Positions 54,264 through 64,000 of a stretch of 64,000 bases of DNA are shown one piece after another. Numbering within the stretch: position 1 is the stretch's first letter; every line of letters begins with the position of its first letter. Source of the stretch: Boswellia sacra (Eukaryota > Streptophyta > Magnoliopsida > Sapindales > Burseraceae); the NCBI GenBank assembly GCA_013180625.2, contig SNVD02004835.1:147518-211517 (forward strand). Direction: 5' to 3'. The translations under genes and the position numbers were made by a program. The notes below the pieces were generated by a model. That model was not told the DNA's origin, did no database searches, and saw only the letters and a program-made list of their open reading frames with translations.

Positions 54264-55000
54264 TGGAAGACTGGGTAAAGAAGATGCGTCTGATCGTGGT
54301 ATTATGGTCAGAGCTTTAGAAGACATAATTACAAATATGTCCCTTACTTCTGATAGTGTGGAAGTCTCTTATTTGCAGGTATCAAACTCTTATGTTGCAC
54401 AAAAATTCACTTGTTTTTCAGGGCTCGTGTTACTTTTTGGTTCTTTTTGTTGCTTAAATGCTGTGTCACCTTTGGTAGACATGGTTGTGAGTTGTTGCTT
54501 GAGCAAAAGTCACTAGATATGATCTGTTTCTTCAATAGAAATGTTTATTTTCCGAGTCATTTAGGGAAGTCTGAACATGGATACATCTCAGGATGCACTA
54601 GAAAAGGTTGTTAAGTTTATAGCATTTGTGAAATATTTTGGAGTGGATGCCAAAGTTGTTATAAGTTCTGGTCTAATCATCTGATATTTTATGAGGATCG
54701 TTTTCATTTCATGGGGTTTTTTAACCAAACTTAATGCTTACTCTTGGAGGTAAGTTGTCATCTCATTCGTATGCAATGAAATTTACTGTTGTCTTTGTTC
54801 TCTGATGGATTATGACTCTCACTATTATTTCATATTTGTTTTTCAGTTGTACATGGAATCTATACAAGATTTGCTTGCTCCAAAGAAGATTAATATCCCA
54901 ATTAATGAGGACAAGACTGGAGAAGTTTCATTGCCTGGTGCAACAATAATTAAAGTTCAAGATCTTGATCATTTCTTAGAATTACTGCAAATTGGTGAAG
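54264..55000 (+). pseudogene. ARK-type (armadillo-repeat) kinesin motor fragment, two exons, cut by an LTR element
   Basis: Exon 54264-54378 (after ttgag, ending CAG|gtatca) reads GRLGKEDASDRGIMVRALED and then VEVSYLQ. Exon 54847-55000 (after ttttcag) continues in phase as LYMESIQDLLAP, INIPINED, TGEVSLPGATI and FLELLQIGE. This is the kinesin motor core just after the P-loop, with the NED.TGEV insert seen in plant ARK/KIN-U kinesins, closest in memory to the ARK3/KIN-UA type. Plant ARK kinesins act on microtubules in cell morphogenesis. The P-loop exon, all upstream exons, the rest of the motor, coiled coil and ARM repeats are absent. The second exon ends abruptly at the LTR start at 55001. 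One codon is missing in INEDKTGEV relative to what I expect. Confidence 0.8.
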
Positions 55001-56417
55001 TGATGCGTTCGAAACTAGCAAGTATACTAGTCGCACAAGTAATAAAGTGATAAGTAAGATATCGTTCCCACGAGGATTGATTCTAATTGAATTTGTTATT
55101 CGAAAGCGAAAACAGAATAAATGGGGGGGTTTTGTTGATTGATTAACTAAACTCAATTCGAAAGCAAATGAAGAATAATACAATGCAAAGTTAAATCAAT
55201 TGAGAGATACACAATAAAAGAAATCTGGTTAAGGGATTATTCTCTACCACAAGATATGGATTTGCGAATTAATTGTAAAATTGTCATCCAATTACACCAT
55301 TGAAATTATCAACCGTAGATAACAACAAGCTCTGTTATCCCAATCTTTCCTTACTTTGTTGTTAAATAAAACAGGCTCTTTATTTAATCTCTATCCATTA
55401 AACAACCTAGAACAAGCTCTCTAAATTTAATTCAATGGATGCATTACAATAAGAAAGATAGGTTGATCTAAGCAATAAACACACAAGCTCGGATTATTTA
55501 ACTTAGGTTGTATTCTCCAATTGCAATCTCTGATCACAATTTTGCTACTAAGGATTAGAAATTCAAGACAATTACGGATCAAGATTTCTAGTCTAGCAAT
55601 AGACAACAACCAGATTATATTCAGTTGGCCATTCCCAAATACAATCTAGCAAGCAATCATAAGCATTAGATATGGGAAAATACAAGCAACTTCAATTAGA
55701 GAATTGGATAACAACTTCTTGCACAATCAACTCACAAAAACCATATCAGGGGCTTTGAAATCACCCTCAACCAATTCAGATTCAGTTACACATGTTTAAG
55801 AACGTGGTAAATACAATACAACATGGAGACATTCCAGAAAATGAAAGGGAAGGGAAAAACTTAGCAAATTTGATGTAATTCTCTTTGGATTGTAGTTCTT
55901 CCTCTTTCCAAGCTTCCTTTCTCCTTCAAGAACTCCAGGAGATGAAAGAATTCCAGAGCTGCAGCCTCCACCACGTTCTCCCCTCTTCAAGTTATGAAAA
56001 TAAAACCCTAAAATGTGTTTAAATACTCTGCTACAGTAACGTGCTACAGTGTCCCGTATTATACATGCTACAGTGATGTGTGGAATTACATTTCTACACT
56101 TCTCACACTGTTTTGATTACAACTTTCGGTACACTGAATGGATTCATAAACCGTAAATTTCTCCAAAAAGTAGACTTCGAGAGCTTTTCAACGGTATATG
56201 ATATGTCATCGGGTTCATTGTATATCAATACAATTAAATCCGAGAAGATGGTTGACTAGCAGAGGTGAAAATGAAGGGTTTTACTCCATTTTTGTGCAAG
56301 TTGCTCCAAAACTCCTACAAACATCAAAACCACACAAAAACATAAAAATACCAAGGAATATAGCAAAGAAACATGGACGAATTGATATAAAAGTAATACA
56401 TAAATAGACACCTATCA
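55001..56417 (-). repeat. 3' LTR of the LOG-carrying element
   Basis: 1417 bp. On the minus strand it begins TGATAGGTG (56417) and ends CGCATCA (55001). It pairs with 62803-64000+. It contains direct ctacagt words near 56030-56075. Confidence 0.9.
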
Positions 56418-56432
56418 AATTCCCCCACACTT
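56418..56432 (-). other. Polypurine tract of the LOG-carrying element
   Basis: Minus strand aagtgtgggggaattt immediately before the 3' LTR start. Confidence 0.85.
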
Positions 56433-58394
56433 AGACTTTGCTAGTCCTCGAGCAACTAAAATGATACGAAACAAAACTAAACCGAAACAGAATCAAAGAA
56501 AAATTAAAACACACAAATGCTTCAACTTGCAAATAGGCCTCAAAGATTGTACTTAATTATAACCCAAGGAAAACTTCAAAATAATGCACTTGATCAAGAA
56601 TTTTATCTCAAAGATTAGTTTCGCTTCATTTCAATTCCTCAAGTGTGTGTGTGTAGAGCCATTCTCACCTAATCACTTGTAACCCGGATGAGTTTATGCA
56701 TAAAAATGAATCATATTTAATATTGAAGATGTGTGTATAAATGAACTCCATAGGCCTGCTTTTCAAGTCACTCTCCACTAATGTAGACATGCACAACACC
56801 AAGGATCAAGTAGGACTTTATTAAGCTTGTAACGTTTGGCTTGGGTGAAGGTATGATAAAGGATAATAATTTGGCTCAAATCACCCACAAACACATAAAT
56901 CATTCAAGAATATGTAGAGCTCAACCCTATAACACAACTTCATTTCAATTCACCAGGTTACTCCCCCAAACTTATTTAGAACACTCAATCTTTTTTTTTT
57001 TTTTTGCAGAAAACAAAAGAAAACTACACCCCCACACTTTGTTGTTTCATTCTTTTTAAGAACACTTAAGGGTATAGATCTCTTATTCTTCTTCTTTTGT
57101 TCTCTTTTTTTCTTTTTTTTCTTTTTTTCTTTTTTTTATTACACTTCCCTCCCCCACACTTAAACAACACATTGTCCCCAATGTGTAAGTATGTGGACAA
57201 TAAGTACAGATTGGCTTTTTTCTTTTTTTTTTCAAACACAATGGAACTCACTTGCATTGCTCATGACACATTCCAACCTCCTCTAACTTTCCAAAACCAG
57301 AACATAGCTCAAAATTTAATTGTGAATGATCTACATGCTCATAGGTAAGGGATTAACTGTTTGGAACAAAATCGTTTTAGGTTAGGAAATCTTTTAGTGA
57401 GTTAACAAAGAAAAAGGATTACAAAGGCTCAAAGGGGTAACTAGGGATCAATTTCTGTCAAGGTTGGCTATTAAGGCTCAAACGGTCCAAAGATGGCCTA
57501 AATCATTTCCCCAATGTTGCACAGTCTCGGATTTCGCCTTGAGTGACCATCAAACAAGTTCTAGAATTCATTGAAATCTGAAGAAACATTTAAATTACAT
57601 AAACTTTCTCTAAGTGAACAAATAACTCAGTGATAATAGCTCAGTGCTCAATGTTGCGCAAGGAATCAAAAGCAAAGCGAAAACCAATAAACATTTCAAG
57701 CACACAGATCCATGCATCATTTATCATTTTCCAAGAGTTATTCTTAATTCAATCATTATCTTATCATCGACCCACAAATGCAAGAAAAGAGGTACGTGGC
57801 GTTGTTACACCTGAGTCAAGATTGTATATTTCAACAATCCTTAGGACCAGTAGCCCGCAGACTTAAGGTTTCCAGCCTATATACCTTTATTATGAAAGAA
57901 CAAAACAAGAAACAAGACACTTCAAACAACATGAAATAAACAAACTACAGATTTATTGAGAGAGAATGCGTTTCAAGAGTTAAGAAAACCCCATATTCTG
58001 CCATTCTCAGGTTTTTCCACAATGTTTTTTTTTTTTCGAATCGAAACTGATAAAGACAAAAACACACAACAACTCGAAATTACATAAAACTAAACTTACT
58101 CAGAAAATAATAAAGTCCAACAAATCAGAAAACACAAACAAGTCAGTTAGAATGGGTCTAAAAAGTTTAGAAGTTAGCCTCCTTATTCAGCCATTATGGA
58201 TTAAAGAAATCCAGAATGCGTTTCAAGAGAACTTGAACTTTTCAAGCCACCACTCTAAAAGCCAAGATTAGAAAATATTACCTGGGGTGAAAGAAAATAA
58301 CCTGAAAAAAAACCTCAAAAGAATGACATGAAAAATCTCAAATAAACACACTAAAAAGAAAGCAAACAAAACGAAGCAAACCAGCAAATAGAGA
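56433..58394 (-). other. 3' noncoding region of the LOG-carrying element
   Basis: Lies between the LOG stop and the PPT. It contains long T/C-rich runs on the plus strand (56990-57006, 57105-57138, 57219-57232), a second gtgtggggga-like purine word on the minus strand near 57154-57162, and a short inverted phrase (acacattgtccccaatgtgt, 57168-57187). Open stretches are short and motif-free. There is no RT, RNase H or integrase. Confidence 0.6.
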
Positions 58395-59045
58395 TTACAG
58401 ATGGAGGGTTAAATCCAGTTGACGCCTTTTGTTGCCTTCTCCAAACCAATTTATCCGAGCCATTGTTGGATCAGGTGAATAGACGAATTCTTGTAGTTTG
58501 TCAATTAACTCTCCTGCAGTTGAAGCTGTAACCAGAATTTGCCTTGCTGACGGTGAGATGAAATTTTTTTCTACAGCTTGATCAAGAAAGGACAACAAAC
58601 CATCAAAAAATTTATTAACATTTAACAAACCAATGGGTTTCCGATGGATGTTTAGCTGTGCCCAAGAGGTGATTTGAAATATCTCCTCTAATGTACCATA
58701 ACCACCCGGCAAAGCTATAAATGCATCGGACTTAACAACCATATGTGCAATACGCTCATGCATACTAGAGACCTGTAACTCTTCCCCGATTGTGTTGCCT
58801 ACGATATCTCGTACAGCTACTGGTTTAGGGATAATGCCGAGAACTTTGCTCCCTCCTAGGGATGCAGCTGTTGACACACACCCCATTAACCCAAGACTAC
58901 CCCCTCCATAAATCAAATTAATACCCCTCGCAGCTAATGTCCTACCAAGATCAAGAGCTGCTGTGGTAAACTCTCCATCTTTACCAAATTGCGATCCGCA
59001 AAATACGCATATATTGCGGAATCGCCGAATTGGTGTTTTCTCCAT
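58395..59045 (-). CDS. LOG: Cytokinin riboside 5'-monophosphate phosphoribohydrolase (LOG family), intronless
   Basis: A 216-residue uninterrupted ORF, the usual full length for plant LOG enzymes, which release active cytokinin bases from their riboside monophosphates in one step in the cytosol or nucleus. It is a Rossmann-like lysine-decarboxylase-type fold. FCGSQFGK lies at residues 15-22, YGGGSLGLMG at 46-55, the catalytic Arg in MHERIAHM at 98, and the signature PGGYGTLEE at 113-121 with its Glu. ITSWAQLNIHRKPIGLLNV follows at 125-143. All key residues are present; only FCGSS reads FCGSQ. Plant LOG genes normally have several introns and this has none, so it is probably a retrocopy. It lies within an LTR element, in the same orientation, where RT and integrase should be. 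The start ATG has an AG-rich context (tagaaATGg). A TATA-like tatatac lies about 100 bp upstream and a G-box repeat 145-385 bp upstream. Confidence 0.93.
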   Translation of the reverse strand: MEKTPIRRFRNICVFCGSQFGKDGEFTTAALDLGRTLAARGINLIYGGGSLGLMGCVSTAASLGGSKVLGIIPKPVAVRDIVGNTIGEELQVSSMHERIAHMVVKSDAFIALPGGYGTLEEIFQITSWAQLNIHRKPIGLLNVNKFFDGLLSFLDQAVEKNFISPSARQILVTASTAGELIDKLQEFVYSPDPTMARINWFGEGNKRRQLDLTLHL

Positions 59046-59139
59046 TTCTACAAGTGCTCTAATCTTGTGTAAGACACGTTAGATATTATGCTTTTCAATT
59101 GCAAGACAGGTTATGGAATGACATATGAAAATATGCAGA

Positions 59140-59152
59140 ATGTATATATACA
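59140..59152 (-). promoter_or_regulatory. TATA-like box upstream of the LOG ORF
   Basis: Minus strand gtgtatatatac, about 100 bp before the LOG ATG at 59045. Position and sequence fit a TATA box, but AT-rich DNA gives such words often. Confidence 0.35.
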
Positions 59153-59184
59153 CCCATAAAACTCTCAAATTTTGACACATGGGG

Positions 59185-59430
59185 ACATACTTTCGGTGGG
59201 GGTTGCTCGATGCAGATTTATCGCCCCAAGATTTGAAAAAATGAGATATGCTTTCGGCGGGGTTTGACAAAACCTACACACTTGTCTCCCACGTGAAGCA
59301 TGAAAAATGGAAATATAATTTCGGTGGGGTTTGACAAAACCGCCACACTTATCTCCCACGTGAAGCATGAAAAGTAGAGATATACTTTCGGCGAAGATTG
59401 ACAAAACCTCCACACTTGTCTCCACGTGTG
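59185..59430 (-). repeat. Tandem repeat, four units of about 61-67 bp, three with a G-box (CACGTG)
   Basis: The landmark ctttcgg(t/c)gg recurs at about 59190, 59251, 59318 (as atttcggtgg) and 59385. Units share tttgacaaaacc and then ctcccacgtgaagcatg. CACGTG occurs at 59290-59295, 59357-59362 and 59423-59428, spaced 67 and 66 bp. G-boxes bind bZIP and bHLH regulators in plants. The array sits directly upstream of LOG and could act as an enhancer; that function is inferred only. Confidence 0.85.
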
Positions 59431-59657
59431 TGTATGACATGGGGTAGTCATATGGTTTGTCAAAAAGAAAACTTGAAATTAAAACAAACAAAATCAACAA
59501 ACAACAACAACACAAAAACAACATTGATAATCAGATCAAACGAAACAAGAAAGAATAAAATTCGACAACAACAACACACATTCAAATATACAAGTAGTTG
59601 TGATTGTGGCTCACATCTTCCTCTGGTTTTTACGTCCAGTAACGGCTGAAACGCCTT

Positions 59658-59903
59658 CTATGAGTCGGGGATTTGCTTCCCATCCAGTTTTCTTATAAAC
59701 TGGCAAACAGGGTCTTTTTTAGTCAGATTCCCTAGACTATAACACTGCAATTCATCACGAAATTGTGTCCATAGATTAAGCAATTCACGCTGAACAATTC
59801 CAAAAGAATGTGACTCGAGAGTTAACAAAACATTATCCAGCGACTCATTACTCAAACCATTCTTAATAAATGAAAGTTTTATCTTCTCTATTCCTGGACG
59901 CAA
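59658..59903 (-). CDS. Hypothetical 81-residue ORF between the cysteine-rich ORF and LOG
   Basis: Starts at an ATG (59903) that overlaps the end of the preceding ORF (59863-60279) by 41 bases in another frame, an arrangement like compact viral genomes. It reads MRPGIEKIKLSFIKNGL and then ELLNLWTQFRDELQCYS. It has no signal peptide, membrane segment or motif that I recognise. It has the same orientation as LOG and the host element. It may be a fragment of a larger captured gene. Confidence 0.4.
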   Translation of the reverse strand: MRPGIEKIKLSFIKNGLSNESLDNVLLTLESHSFGIVQRELLNLWTQFRDELQCYSLGNLTKKDPVCQFIRKLDGKQIPDS

Positions 59904-60279
59904 AACCTAATGAACGACAAGTCTGGTTACAATTCCATCTAGCACATTTATAACATACTTGTAACCTTTTCGCTCTTCGCCTCTTGGCGTAGTAGCTCTG
60001 TCCCAGACCAGGCATGTATTTTGCGAGATTAATGTCCGGCTCACCGGACAATCTCACCTTGGCTTCGATAAGCCATCGAATATCCGCAGGCAGATTTAAG
60101 AGCATCAATACCCAAAGTCTAGTCATCCGTACTTTATAAATTTTAAACACAGCATTTTGAGGAAGTGAAGGAAAATACTTACGAAGGTTCGACAGAAAGA
60201 TATCGGCATCCATTGAAGAAGAGAAAAGGAGAGTTATTACCGATAATGCGATGAGTTTGTTCTTCTCCCAGATATGCAC
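59863..60279 (-). CDS. Cysteine-rich basic ORF resembling a flexivirus nucleic-acid-binding protein
   Basis: 138 codons from 60279, or about 116 from an internal ATG at 60213 (MDADIFLSNLRKYFPSL). A hydrophobic stretch with LPADIRWLIEAKV is followed by a strongly basic run (YAKRRRAKR) and directly by a CX2CX4CX3C cluster (CYKCARWNCNQTC). That order, and the spacing of basic run to Cys cluster, is what small 3'-proximal nucleic-acid-binding proteins of Betaflexiviridae-type plant viruses (Carla_C4-like family) show. Those proteins bind nucleic acid and often weaken host RNA silencing. I see no in-frame stop, but nothing shows expression. Alternatives are a chance Cys-rich frame or an unknown host zinc-binding protein. 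It would be a captured viral fragment inside a retroelement. Confidence 0.5.
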   Translation of the reverse strand: MHIWEKNKLIALSVITLLFSSSMDADIFLSNLRKYFPSLPQNAVFKIYKVRMTRLWVLMLLNLPADIRWLIEAKVRLSGEPDINLAKYMPGLGQSYYAKRRRAKRLQVCYKCARWNCNQTCRSLGFASRNREDKTFIY

Positions 60280-60600
60280 GTTTCAAACCTTCAGGCAATG
60301 GTTTCAGATCCCCTTTGGATGTTTCCTCAAGCTGTTGCACAAATGAATTCGAAGTACGGACTGATCAAATTAAACAAAAGGAAGGAAAAGAAAAAAGCAG
60401 AAACGAAACTAAAGACACATAAAAGAGATAACAACACCCTAGCAAACAACATCAAAAACAAGTCAAAAAATATAAAAACAAATGGACAGATGGGCAATAG
60501 GATAAAACCTGATCCAATTTGATGGCCTATGCAAGGAATCTCCCTCGATACACAAAAAATCGATCATTTATTTAAACTCATTTTATTTTTTCTTTTTTTT
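60280..60600 (-). other. Junction region between truncated pol and the inserted ORFs
   Basis: No recognisable protein. A-rich on the plus strand (60370-60490). The boundary between gypsy pol similarity (ending near 60620) and foreign sequence (from about 60280) lies here. Confidence 0.45.
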
Positions 60601-60609
60601 TTTCAAAAA

Positions 60610-61140
60610 CATTGGGTTGCTCCCAATAAGCGCTTGGTTTTAACGTCCTCAGCCTGACTTTGGTTCCATCATGGGAGGATCCAATTTCTGTTGTGCTTCT
60701 CTAATGGGCTTGGATCCCTCTTCTAACAAGATACGGTCAATGCATATGATGGGCCTTGGATTTCAACAATTGTCCACTCAATAGCTATTTTGTGATCTGT
60801 AAGTATTCGGACGAGTTTTTCTTATTGTATTCGTGCAAGGCCCATTTCCATTGTAACTCGCAAAGTATCATTCTCACCCAAGAATCCATAATTCAAATGA
60901 TCTGGAAGTGACTTAAGCTCCAAGGTATTGGCTTTCATCACAGAAGGAAGAAGTTTCTCATTAGATAAGGCAATTCAATGTACGAAACATCATACCTATT
61001 TGTGGTGATAGCTATAGTCTCATCCAAGCTTGTCACAGCTTCCTCCACTTCTTTAGCCACTTGTATCAGCTTTCTTGGTTCTTTGAAACTTTCTATCCTT
61101 ATGTGTTCACTAATAGCAACATCCACTCCATTCTTGCGAG
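60610..61140 (-). pseudogene. Protease-RT linker and RT start of the Athila-like element, truncated
   Basis: Minus-strand pieces in shifting frames. ELPYLMRNFF and SLDETIAITTNRYDVSYI (60960-61150) come first. LELKSLPDHLNYGFLGEN and ARIQ follow near 60840-60930, and LLEEGSKPIREAQQKLDPPM near 60650-60720. The last is the phrase that opens RT in Athila-type gypsy elements. No RT catalytic motif follows, so pol is deleted or replaced at this point. Confidence 0.72.
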
Positions 61141-61626
61141 TTAACTCAAACATTGTTGTGGCAAATAATCAATAACGTCAACTGCAAAAACAGAATGTAA
61201 GTCATTAGAGTACCTCATTTCCTCAAAAATATTAAAACATATCACCTTGCCATCAAACTCTATGTTCAATGTGCCATCATGAACATCAATCTTGGTTTCT
61301 AGGCAGTTTTTCAAGAATGGTCTCCCTAAAAGAATCGGTGTTGGATTAGGGGATGTCTCATCCTCCATTTCAAGAACATAAAAGTCTGCTGGAAATACCA
61401 ATTGATTCACCTTCACAAGCACATCTTCCACAACTCCCTTGGGATATGCATTAGAACGATCAGCAAGTTGAATGATAATACCAGTTTCCGCAAGGGGTCC
61501 AAGATTCAAGGAAACATAAATAGAATATGGCATGACATTAATAGATGCTCCTAAATCTAACATAGCTCTTTCAAACTTGGTATTACCAATGGTGCATGGA
61601 ATGGTGAACGTACCTGATCTTTGCAT
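61141..61626 (-). CDS. Athila-like retroelement aspartic protease region
   Basis: 161 codons. GTFTIPCTIGNTKFERAMLD, then the active-site phrase LDLGASINVMPYS, QLADRS, and ILLGRPFLKN with the hydrophobic-hydrophobic-Gly motif of retropepsins. It would process the element's polyprotein. The frame is open, but upstream junctions with gag are broken. Same orientation as gag and LOG. Confidence 0.85.
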   Translation of the reverse strand: MQRSGTFTIPCTIGNTKFERAMLDLGASINVMPYSIYVSLNLGPLAETGIIIQLADRSNAYPKGVVEDVLVKVNQLVFPADFYVLEMEDETSPNPTPILLGRPFLKNCLETKIDVHDGTLNIEFDGKVICFNIFEEMRYSNDLHSVFAVDVIDYLPQQCLS

Positions 61627-61903
61627 TTCGGAGAAATTTTTCTTTGCAATACAGCTGAAACATTTTCCCCCACGCTTACCTTCTCATTTCCTTTCAACTT
61701 TCTCTTGTTGGTGCATAACTCCTTCAGAAATTTGTATAACGAGGTACTTGCGCGATAAAATCCAGAAGTGGTACATTTACCCTCGATTTTGCCAAAAAGT
61801 TTCTTAAAAAAAAAAAAAAAAGATTTTCTGTTCTTGTTTCCTCCTTCTTCGATTTTGCAAATCACTAGGAAAAAGTGAGGAGTAACATATGAAGTACTGG
61901 GAG
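61557..61903 (-). pseudogene. gag-protease junction, degenerate
   Basis: The minus-strand frame contains FYRASTSLYKFLKELCTNKR, the spacer that precedes the protease in Athila-type gag-pol, with a poly-A tract (61807-61821) and frame changes. Not separately functional. Confidence 0.55.
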
Positions 61904-62725
61904 TTAATAGGATTTACCTGAGAAGTCAATGTTTTGGTTCATGGGTGGATGTGGTGTCATCTCCTTCATCAGTTTTGTGATTTTCCCGGTAAGACATCTA
62001 ATTGCTCTCCACTTTGCAAAGTTTATCGCACTAGCAAGTCTCGCTGGATTGATCACCGTTTGACAAGATAATTCTTCTGAGCCTTGGCCCTCGAATTTGC
62101 TCATGCTAGTGGCCAATTGTCCCATTTGATTTGGCAGGTTTTGGATACTTGCCCCAGTTTCCTGCTGGAATTGCATTGTGTTAGTGGCAAGTGCATTAAC
62201 AATATCTTCGAGAGACATAACTGAGTTTTGCGAAGTTGGTTGCGGTGCTGGATGTGCCATTGGTGGTGGTTGCATTTGAAATGGTTGCTGCACTCTAGGT
62301 TGATTGAAACTTTGTGGCCGATTTGGTATCACATTTGGAGTGATTGGTTGATGATTCCAGTAACTGAAATTATGTTGATCTTCCCATCCAGCATTGTAAG
62401 TGCTAGAGAAAGGATAATACCATTGCCTCGTTTGTCCTGGAAATCCACCCATGGCATTGGCTTGTTCCATATATTCTTCTTGTAAAGTTGGATACATGTC
62501 GATTGGATGCTCCATCGTAGAATATTTCCCACATTCATAAGATTTTTGTATATCTCCTACAGCCATGTTTTCCACAAGAGAGGTTAGCTCAGAAAGTTGT
62601 TGTTCAATGTTCGGAGTGCTTACCTCATTTACTCTCCATGGTACTTGGGGCTCAAATCCGCTACTGAATTGATAGAAGTTTACTGCCATGTTGTCTAAAC
62701 ACAAACAATCAGAAAAGAAAAACAA
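61904..62725 (-). pseudogene. C-terminal part of Athila-like gag
   Basis: 273 codons. A decayed zinc knuckle (ECGKYSTMEHPIDMYPTLQE) is followed by NAMGGFPGQTRQWYYPFS, a Pro/Gln-rich stretch (QPFQMQPPPMAHPAPQPTSQ), and the conserved LEDIVNALATNTMQFQQETG and SIQNLPNQMGQLATSMSKFE. The N-terminal capsid domain that should precede this is missing: the ORF starts only about 55 bases after the PBS, so several hundred codons have been lost. Confidence 0.82.
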
Positions 62726-62778
62726 AGAAAATATGAATCAACAATGAAAACAAAATAACAAATGAATTAGAAAATCAA

Positions 62779-62796
62779 TCCCCGGCAACGGCGCCA
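62779..62796 (-). other. Primer-binding site of the LOG-carrying element
   Basis: Minus strand TGGCGCCGTTGCCGGGGA, six bases from the 5' LTR end. This PBS is shared by many Athila/Tat-type plant gypsy elements. Confidence 0.9.
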
Positions 62797-62802
62797 AAAA
62801 CT

Positions 62803-64000
62803 TGATGCGTTCGAAACTAGCAAGTATACTAGTCGCACAAGTAATAAAGTGATGAGTAAGATATCATTCCCACGAGGATTGATTCTAATTGAATTTGTTA
62901 TTCGAAAGCCAAAACAGAATAAATGGGGGGTTTTGTTGATTGATTAACTAAACTCAAATCGAAAGCAAATGAAGAATAATACAATGCAAAGTTAAATCAA
63001 TTGAGAGATACACAATGAAAGAAATCTGGTTAAGGGTTCTTTCTCTGCCACAAGATATGAATTTGTGAATTAACATAGAATTGTAATCCAATTACAGCAT
63101 TGAAGTTATCAACCGTAGATAACAACAAGTTCTGTTATCCCAATCTTTCCTTACTTTGTTGTTAAATAAAATAGGCTCTTTACTTAATCTCTATCCATTA
63201 AACAACCTAGAACAGCTCTCTAAATTTAATTCAATGGATGCATTATGAAAAGAAAGACAGGTTGATCTAAGCAATAAACACACAAGCTCGGATTATTTAA
63301 CTTAGGATATATTCTCCAAATGCAATCTCTGATCACAATTTTGCTACTAATGATTAGAAATTCAAGACAATTACGGATCAATTTTTCTAGTCTAGCAATA
63401 GACAATATCCAGATTATATTCAGTTGGCCACCCAAATACAATCCAGCAAGCAATCATAAGCATTAGACATGGGAAAATACAAGCAACTTCAATTAGAAAA
63501 TTGGATAACAACTTCTTGCACAATTAACTCACAAAAATCATATCATGGGCTTTGAAATCACCCTCAACCAATTCAGATTCAGTTACACATGTTTAAGAAC
63601 GTGGTAAATACAATACAACATGGAGACATTCCAGAAAATGAAAGGGAAGGGAAAAACTTAGCAAATTTGATGTAATTCTCTTTGGATTGGAGTTCTTCCT
63701 CTTTCCAAGCTTCCTTTCTCCTTCAAGAACTCCAAGAGATGAAAGAATTCCAGAGCAGCAGCCTCTACCACGTTCTCCCCTCTTCCAAGTTATGAAATAA
63801 AACCCTAAAATGTGTTTAAATACTCTGCTACAGTAACGTGCTACAGTGTCCCCGTATTATACATGCTACAGTGATGTGTGGAATTACATTTCTACACTTC
63901 TCACACTGTTTTGATTACAACTTTCGGTACACTGAAGGGATTCATAAACCGTAAATTTCTCCCAAAAGTAGACTTCGAGAGCTTTTCAACGGTATATGAT
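62803..64000 (-). repeat. 5' LTR of the LOG-carrying element, partial at the window edge
   Basis: Matches 55001-56190 over its visible 1198 bp. The remaining ~220 bp lie outside the window. Confidence 0.9.

Follow-up and report, generated by a model that had tools for sequence, protein, structure and literature searches.

A pol-deleted Ty3/gypsy retrotransposon of Boswellia sacra carrying a NABP-LOG gene pair

LOG genes have been described before in plant retrotransposons. A scan of 121 angiosperm genomes found a YgdH (LOG) domain in gypsy consensuses from two Citrus species and, under a less strict filter, from Populus trichocarpa, in agreement with an earlier report (Steinbauerova 2011, as cited in the parts of Alvarado-Marchena 2022, PMC9289625, used here). 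Athila/Tat (OTA) elements contain large non-coding stretches, as well as extra open reading frames (ORFs) located outside gag-pol, according to the sections of Neumann 2019 (PMC6317226) relied on here, in which the use of extra ORFs in plant long terminal repeat (LTR) elements is regarded as doubtful. Only extra ORFs of 250 codons or more were included in that survey, which left ORFs of 182 to 216 codons below its threshold. The element described here lies at positions 55001-64000 of a 64,000-nucleotide stretch of Boswellia sacra DNA (contig SNVD02004835.1; the window) and resembles both systems: it has a LOG domain in a plant Ty3/gypsy element, which is thus already known and not new, and extra ORFs with large non-coding stretches outside gag-pol.

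The window element is, in our view, likely to be a non-autonomous copy that has lost pol and belongs to a Ty3/gypsy family from the Athila/Tat side, in which LOG and a second gene, NABP, form a fixed accessory pair within the 3' extra-ORF region. What was noticed is real and goes beyond a single odd locus; its headline is less surprising than a first reading suggested, and its details are more interesting.

Anatomy of the element and its relatives

The interval is a single Ty3/gypsy element on the minus strand, with the paired LTRs ending in TG...CA, the primer binding site (PBS) and the polypurine tract (PPT) of a Ty3/gypsy LTR retrotransposon. Its two LTRs are 96% alike, with 51 mismatches and 6 gap columns over 1197 aligned bases and a Kimura two-parameter (K2P) distance of 0.044, which would correspond to 1.7 or 3.1 million years under two substitution rates that we assume. 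The initial annotation had seen a real LTR retrotransposon with a full-length, intronless LOG gene in the element's orientation, and the LTRs, PBS, PPT, protease and open 216-codon frame bear this out. In its anatomy, the gag-like ORF at 61907-62725 owes its label to its position, a Pfam search of this ORF having given no gag match, and the NABP gene between pol and LOG had been overlooked. The upstream LTR is truncated where contig C2452, and with it the window, ends; a target-site duplication is therefore unreadable in this copy. The features are listed below, family A being the copies retrieved with the window LOG as described thereafter.

55001-56417, minus strand: 3' LTR (element sense), direct repeat of 62803-64000, TG...CA ends
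56418-56430, minus strand: polypurine tract GTGTGGGGGAATT, directly before the LTR start, the expected place
58395-59045, minus strand: LOG ORF, 216 amino acids, intronless, with catalytic Arg98 and Glu121 and pocket residues Ile99 and Gln124 in place of CgLOG Lys100 and Glu125 (PF03641, E = 6e-39; 2a33, E = 2.9e-68)
59144-59150, minus strand: TATA-like box 105 bases before the LOG ATG, candidate internal promoter, kept in 20/21 family-A rows
59234-59434, minus strand: three 67-bp tandem repeats with CACGTG motifs in the NABP-LOG spacer
59661-59903, minus strand: NABP gene, downstream piece in another frame, by eye like the C-terminal part of intact NABP proteins
59866-60279, minus strand: NABP gene, upstream piece, broken here (PF05515, E = 1.5e-7; PF01623, E = 1.3e-5; both above the gathering score)
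60661-60664, minus strand: junction of a pol deletion of about 2.65 kb, where alignments to L011, L015, L024 and L028 break and 11/11 short copies are continuous
60665-60974, minus strand: remnant of the linker between protease (PR) and reverse transcriptase (RT) and first part of RT, from reading frames and alignment to pol-bearing copies
61144-61626, minus strand: aspartic protease (PF13650, E = 1.2e-5)
61907-62725, minus strand: gag-like ORF, 273 amino acids, an open frame at the gag position with matches in relatives
62779-62796, minus strand: primer binding site TGGCGCCGTTGCCGGGGA, at the expected place
62803-64000, minus strand: 5' LTR (element sense), direct repeat, cut by the contig end
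54846-55000, plus strand: kinesin motor-domain exon of a host gene, interrupted by the element (PF00225, E = 2.4e-8 on 54805-55047)

The genome (638.6 Mb in 7431 contigs) was searched with the window LOG, giving 14768 first-look places, the best 150 of which were scored; copy numbers are therefore lower bounds. All of these best 150 cover residues 1-215 or 1-216 at 95 to 100% protein identity, and 143 are without a stop. Twenty copies (L009 to L028, family A) were picked by hand from the scored set and fetched with their flanks. The initial annotation had proposed a search for copies with the same LTR, and in this sample LTR and LOG indeed recur together in 20/20, with NABP present in 19 (absent from L020).

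Pol was checked by Pfam in the long frames of four of the 20 (L011, L015, L024 and L028; five others, L009, L012, L014, L020 and L021, were assigned to neither the pol-bearing nor the short form). L011 showed RVT_1; L015, RVT_1, RNase H and an integrase zinc finger; L024, the zinc finger and the integrase core; and L028, RNase H, the zinc finger and the integrase core. The order RT, RNase H (RH), integrase (INT), a Ty3/gypsy feature, is seen in ORFs of L015 and L028, and pol is deleted from the window copy. All four pol-bearing relatives have the order pol, NABP, LOG, LTR. When the stretch from PR to NABP in the window was aligned with these copies, the alignments broke within a few bases of 60661-60664, with about 2.63 to 2.67 kb in between. 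The 11 copies that are short like the window (L010, L013, L016 to L019, L022, L023 and L025 to L027) run continuously through this point, L013 having a separate gap nearby. One common junction in all 11 indicates that the short form arose by a single deletion and then multiplied; it was probably mobilized in trans by proteins of pol-bearing copies. The deletion lies about 1.6 kb upstream of LOG, so that the earlier placement of LOG at the very site of the missing RT, RNase H and integrase does not hold. LOG as a replacement of pol was likewise rejected, the four pol-bearing relatives carrying both pol domains and LOG.

Target-site duplications of 5 bp were recognized by eye in all five copies with both ends readable (L017, L019, L022, L023 and L025) out of 10 looked at, and LTR divergence ranged from 0.008 to 0.131 in the 10 of the 20 fetched copies that have both LTRs inside the fetched stretch. 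The PBS type is presumably that of Athila/Tat elements. In L015, RNase H models match a single region between RT and integrase; an archaeal RNase H is absent from Athila, which distinguishes Athila from Tat (PMC6317226, in the sections used). In the left flank of L010, a second PPT-like stretch precedes the 5' LTR, as in tandem elements sharing an LTR.

The NABP-LOG pair across subfamilies

The ORF at 59866-60279 scored 32.1 bits with PF05515 (Viral_NABP; cut-off, 23) and 25.5 bits with PF01623 (Carla_C4; cut-off, 20.9), and NABP of L009, L011 and L012 gave Pfam scores of 41.0 to 41.3 and 23.8 bits. The gene is broken into two frames in the window; relatives and other plants have intact proteins of 182 to 184 residues. 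A homolog search returned 333 of 344 candidates at E <= 1, and the named matches among the 120 listed come from Populus, Orobanche, Striga and Rhamnella. NABP proteins share a conserved Cys and a basic KRRAKR-type stretch, which we take to be comparable to a carlavirus motif; carlavirus relatives of NABP can suppress silencing. The predicted structure (pLDDT, 59.6) was too poor to use, and a scan of viral contigs for NABP and LOG confirmed neither. The LOG protein P0007 and the NABP protein P0121 are each encoded on a contig of 8723 bases and, judged by equal length alone, probably on the same one. Upstream of NABP, a short frame at 60182-60364 on the minus strand (LKPLPEGLKRAYLGEEQT) resembles by eye the PR-RT linker at 60825-60974 on the same strand, and it looks as if a piece of another element might have arrived together with NABP and LOG.

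Since picking copies by LOG is biased toward intact LOG genes, a second search was made with NABP, using as the query P0121, which comes from another source. It gave 13697 first-look places; 133 of the best 150, which were scored, had no stop, and 20 loci picked by hand from these 150 were read 1.5 kb downstream. In all 20, a LOG match begins 244 to 325 bases into the stretch after NABP. These loci form two further subfamilies, B (12 loci) and C (8 loci), and the main match has 65 to 70% identity to the window LOG in 15 of the 20 and a lower identity in the rest. In one family-C locus (L044, on C5482) the LOG frame continues as a VSYTHLDVYKRQ-like peptide, presumably a translated sequencing-adaptor artifact, and the assembly may hold adaptor remains there.

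The ratio of nonsynonymous to synonymous substitutions (dN/dS) was calculated by the Nei-Gojobori method for LOG (24 family-A copies, 7 of the 12 B loci and 1 of the 8 C loci) and for NABP (4 A, 7 B and 3 C). The LOG set excludes L024, which has one stop, and loci with broken frames; family C is represented in it by one locus, L036, which has lost its ATG, and six B loci, but no C locus, are common to the two sets. For LOG, dN/dS between subfamilies was 0.16 (A-B), 0.22 (A-C) and 0.37 (B-C); for NABP it was 0.14, 0.19 and 0.20. Both genes are under purifying selection between subfamilies. Within subfamilies, the NABP ratio was 0.20 to 0.29 and that of the LOG-selected family-A copies 0.14; a first count on 25 LOG-selected copies had given a LOG ratio of 0.15 overall and 0.29 for private changes. 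The synonymous divergence (dS) of LOG and NABP was 1.33 and 1.45 (A-B), 1.12 and 1.13 (A-C), and 0.57 and 0.64 (B-C), and this close agreement, at loci that are partly the same, indicates that the two genes probably diverged as a unit. The initial annotation had asked for the dN/dS of LOG, which is thus below 1 between subfamilies, and had explained the intact frame by selection or by recent capture; the first part of this explanation stands, and very recent capture is ruled out by the dS of 0.57 to 1.33 between subfamilies.

The spacer between NABP and LOG could contain an internal promoter for LOG. At least two CACGTG motifs are present in 19/21 family-A rows, compared with 0.07 expected per spacer from base composition, and a TATA-like box stands 104 to 114 bases before the LOG ATG in 20/21; in family B, a TATAAATA box is found at -57 or -53 in 12/12 loci. 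A TATA-like match between -25 and -130 occurs in 9 to 14% of shuffled spacers; little can therefore be made of an isolated case, and the recurrence is due in part to common descent. The first 70 or so bases that follow the NABP stop (59585-59657, minus strand) are nearly the same by eye in A, B and C, the rest of the spacer being different, and a non-coding element may be kept there.

Several observations weigh against a maintained and separately expressed pair. The LOG frame is full and open from its ATG in 7/12 B loci and 0/8 C loci, i.e., in 7 of the 20 NABP-picked loci. Within family B, dN/dS of LOG is 0.51, as expected of decaying copies. The use of stop-free frames lowers the ratios somewhat, all copies come from the best 150 of longer lists, and just 1 of the 8 family-C loci has a TATA-like box.

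Substrate, origin and alternative explanations

In the Corynebacterium enzyme CgLOG, the catalytic pair is proposed to be Arg99 and Glu122, adenine is held by Met96, Lys100 and Glu121, and the inferred prenyl site consists of Met96, His97, Lys100, Glu125 and Trp129; alanine at AMP-binding residues, except Ser19, nearly abolished activity (PMC4979012, in the portions used here). Residues 7-200 of the window LOG align without gaps to AtLOG3 (2a33, E = 2.9e-68). The PGGxGTxxE motif and the catalytic Arg99 and Glu122 (CgLOG numbering) are present, and the Met, the His, both Glu and the Trp of the sites above are retained; Lys100 is replaced by Ile and Glu125 by Gln. The earlier claim that all recognized catalytic motifs are present is thus correct for the catalytic Arg and Glu and fails for these two residues of the adenine/prenyl pocket.

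Both pocket residues are replaced in 108 of 118 homologs, a set that covers homologs generally, whatever the location of each in or outside a retrotransposon. At 100/125, 40 homologs have Leu/His, 35 have Ile/Gln, 10 have Met/Gln, 10 have Met/His, 9 have Lys/Glu, 4 have Ile/His, and the remaining ten have other pairs. Every homolog with Glu125 also has Lys100, and a single one has Lys100 without Glu125. In comparison, AtLOG3-type plant LOGs have Lys/Glu in 120/120 (the best 120 matches of one AtLOG3 query, which sample part of the plant LOG types), AtLOG8 has it too, and bacterial LOGs have it in 79/79 readable sequences of 80 listed (L135 being unreadable, and a stop letter being present in the reading of seven others). 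A quick tree was built from 143 rows (one in six host rows, and retro-type rows of 190 to 260 amino acids); 2 changes of the pocket label suffice on it, compared with 28 when labels are shuffled. Named LOG matches among the 120 listed are from Xanthoceras, Reevesia, Diplodiscus, Pterospermum, Populus, Melia and Rehmannia. Two Xanthoceras sorbifolium proteins with two LOG copies in a row (P0001 and P0002) were left out of both the count and the tree; the single-copy Xanthoceras matches P0069, P0081, P0099 and P0108 keep Lys/Glu, and two of them represent 39 and 35 sequences.

The element LOG could still be a working cytokinin-activating enzyme that raises free cytokinin, pushes division and so favors copying in the germline. 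It scores above the cut-offs of PF03641 and TIGR00730, keeps the catalytic Arg and both motif Glu, and is under purifying selection. We nevertheless find this rather unlikely: the changes of Lys100 to Ile and Glu125 to Gln are found in 25/25 family-A rows and fall on the counterparts of residues that bind adenine and the prenyl group in CgLOG, where alanine at AMP-binding residues nearly abolishes activity (PMC4979012, as above), and the NCBIfam LOG equivalog model gives 116 bits against a cut-off of 300, in a library that serves bacterial and archaeal genomes. It is mainly the paired pocket change, with catalytic residues and selection persisting, that makes cytokinin activation by the element LOG doubtful.

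With regard to the origin of LOG, the part of AtLOG3 toward the C terminus was used to search the genome, and 3 of the best 150 places, which were scored, are host-like (82 to 84%), the other 147 resembling element copies (54 to 59%). In the host LOGs L049 and L050, the coding sequence breaks after LPG and KPV, and in L050 also after KLE, positions at which the element LOG is continuous; these breaks were read from coding stretches alone, splice signals not being part of the reading. Capture from mRNA, as initially suggested, would fit the lack of introns and these two broken host loci; a bacterial source, which would account for their absence as well, is a competing explanation. The window LOG has 54.1% identity to AtLOG3 and 44.8% to Pseudomonas LOG; for the homologs the median is 49.5% to AtLOG3, just above the 46.4% to Pseudomonas LOG, and the quick tree leaves the group unrooted. 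We judge a bacterial source improbable, given that 105/118 homologs are nearer to AtLOG3, that the best of the 80 bacterial loci listed reaches 52% and 62 of them lie at 44 to 48%, and that Lys/Glu sequences, those of Xanthoceras and others like them, cluster with the host LOGs.

That LOG and NABP are neutral passengers without use appears very improbable. Many inserted copies are broken, and the family-B ratio of 0.51 for LOG would suit such a view; against it stand dN/dS values of 0.14 to 0.37 between subfamilies in both genes, at dS of 0.57 to 1.45, and the catalytic residues kept by most of the 118 homologs.

Finally, a host LOG gene around which unrelated LTRs had inserted, as a single locus could suggest and nothing more, has practically no chance of being correct and is ruled out by the order LTR-NABP-LOG-LTR repeated at many loci with 5-bp target-site duplications, by host LOGs with coding-sequence breaks elsewhere in the genome, and by the kinesin exon, which is uninterrupted at the insertion point in 4/4 other copies (L061 to L064). 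These reads through the site answer the refuting case named by the initial annotation and identify the element as an insertion. Full-length matches to the exon occur at four other genome places, and there are part matches at two more, which cover about bases 2-94 of the exon query. The copy L063 has a stop slightly further on and may be a pseudogene; near-identical exon copies or alleles lie on C1854, C7075, C5034, C6477, C6838 and C7264.

Proposed explanation and comparison with known systems

Returning to the non-autonomous copy of a NABP-LOG-bearing family, we suggest that pol-bearing members have the layout LTR-PBS-gag-PR-RT-RH-INT-NABP-LOG-PPT-LTR and probably mobilize the short form in trans. 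NABP and LOG would be kept because they help the element to copy itself, and individual copies would decay once inserted. LOG might be transcribed from its own internal promoter. NABP may bind nucleic acid and, by analogy with its carlavirus relatives, may blunt silencing. LOG would still use the ancestral Arg/Glu chemistry to cleave a substrate of the nucleoside 5'-monophosphate type, and the changed base pocket makes it unlikely that ordinary cytokinin nucleotides are its best substrate. A bolder version, tentative and in our opinion unlikely as a whole, would be a widespread clade of plant retrotransposons with a two-gene counter-host cassette, maintained for tens of millions of years, in which the virus-type NABP would blunt silencing and LOG, transcribed from its internal promoter, would have moved off cytokinins to bind or destroy another nucleotide, perhaps a plant-immunity signal.

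A virus-like and an enzyme-like accessory gene have stayed together under purifying selection as the family multiplied, which offers a testable case for plant LTR elements keeping counter-host genes. From the paired pocket change, an enzyme of the LOG fold acting on another substrate can be predicted. Retrotransposon genes may lie behind some "LOGL10" annotations, because named Populus LOGL10 matches are among the homologs and several clusters have tens to hundreds of members. The likening of the element to an oncogene-carrying retrovirus is strained: LOG is a permanent component of a large family, and a hormone role for it is doubtful.

Both the NABP-LOG pair in a retrotransposon and the paired change in the LOG base pocket look new. 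A literature search, with most subscription papers outside its coverage, found no report of a NABP gene in a retrotransposon. Compared by description, the text of PMC9289625, as far as used here, does not mention a NABP partner, a pocket change or a derivative lacking pol for the Citrus and Populus elements. Like the carlavirus nucleic-acid-binding protein (PF01623, PF05515), NABP of this family scores above the gathering thresholds; unlike it, the protein is retrotransposon-encoded and has 182 to 184 amino acids when intact. The orchid gypsy element with an AlkB m6A demethylase belongs to another plant lineage and has another enzyme, which was assayed there; according to the same parts of PMC9289625, it has, as here, kept an accessory enzyme gene.

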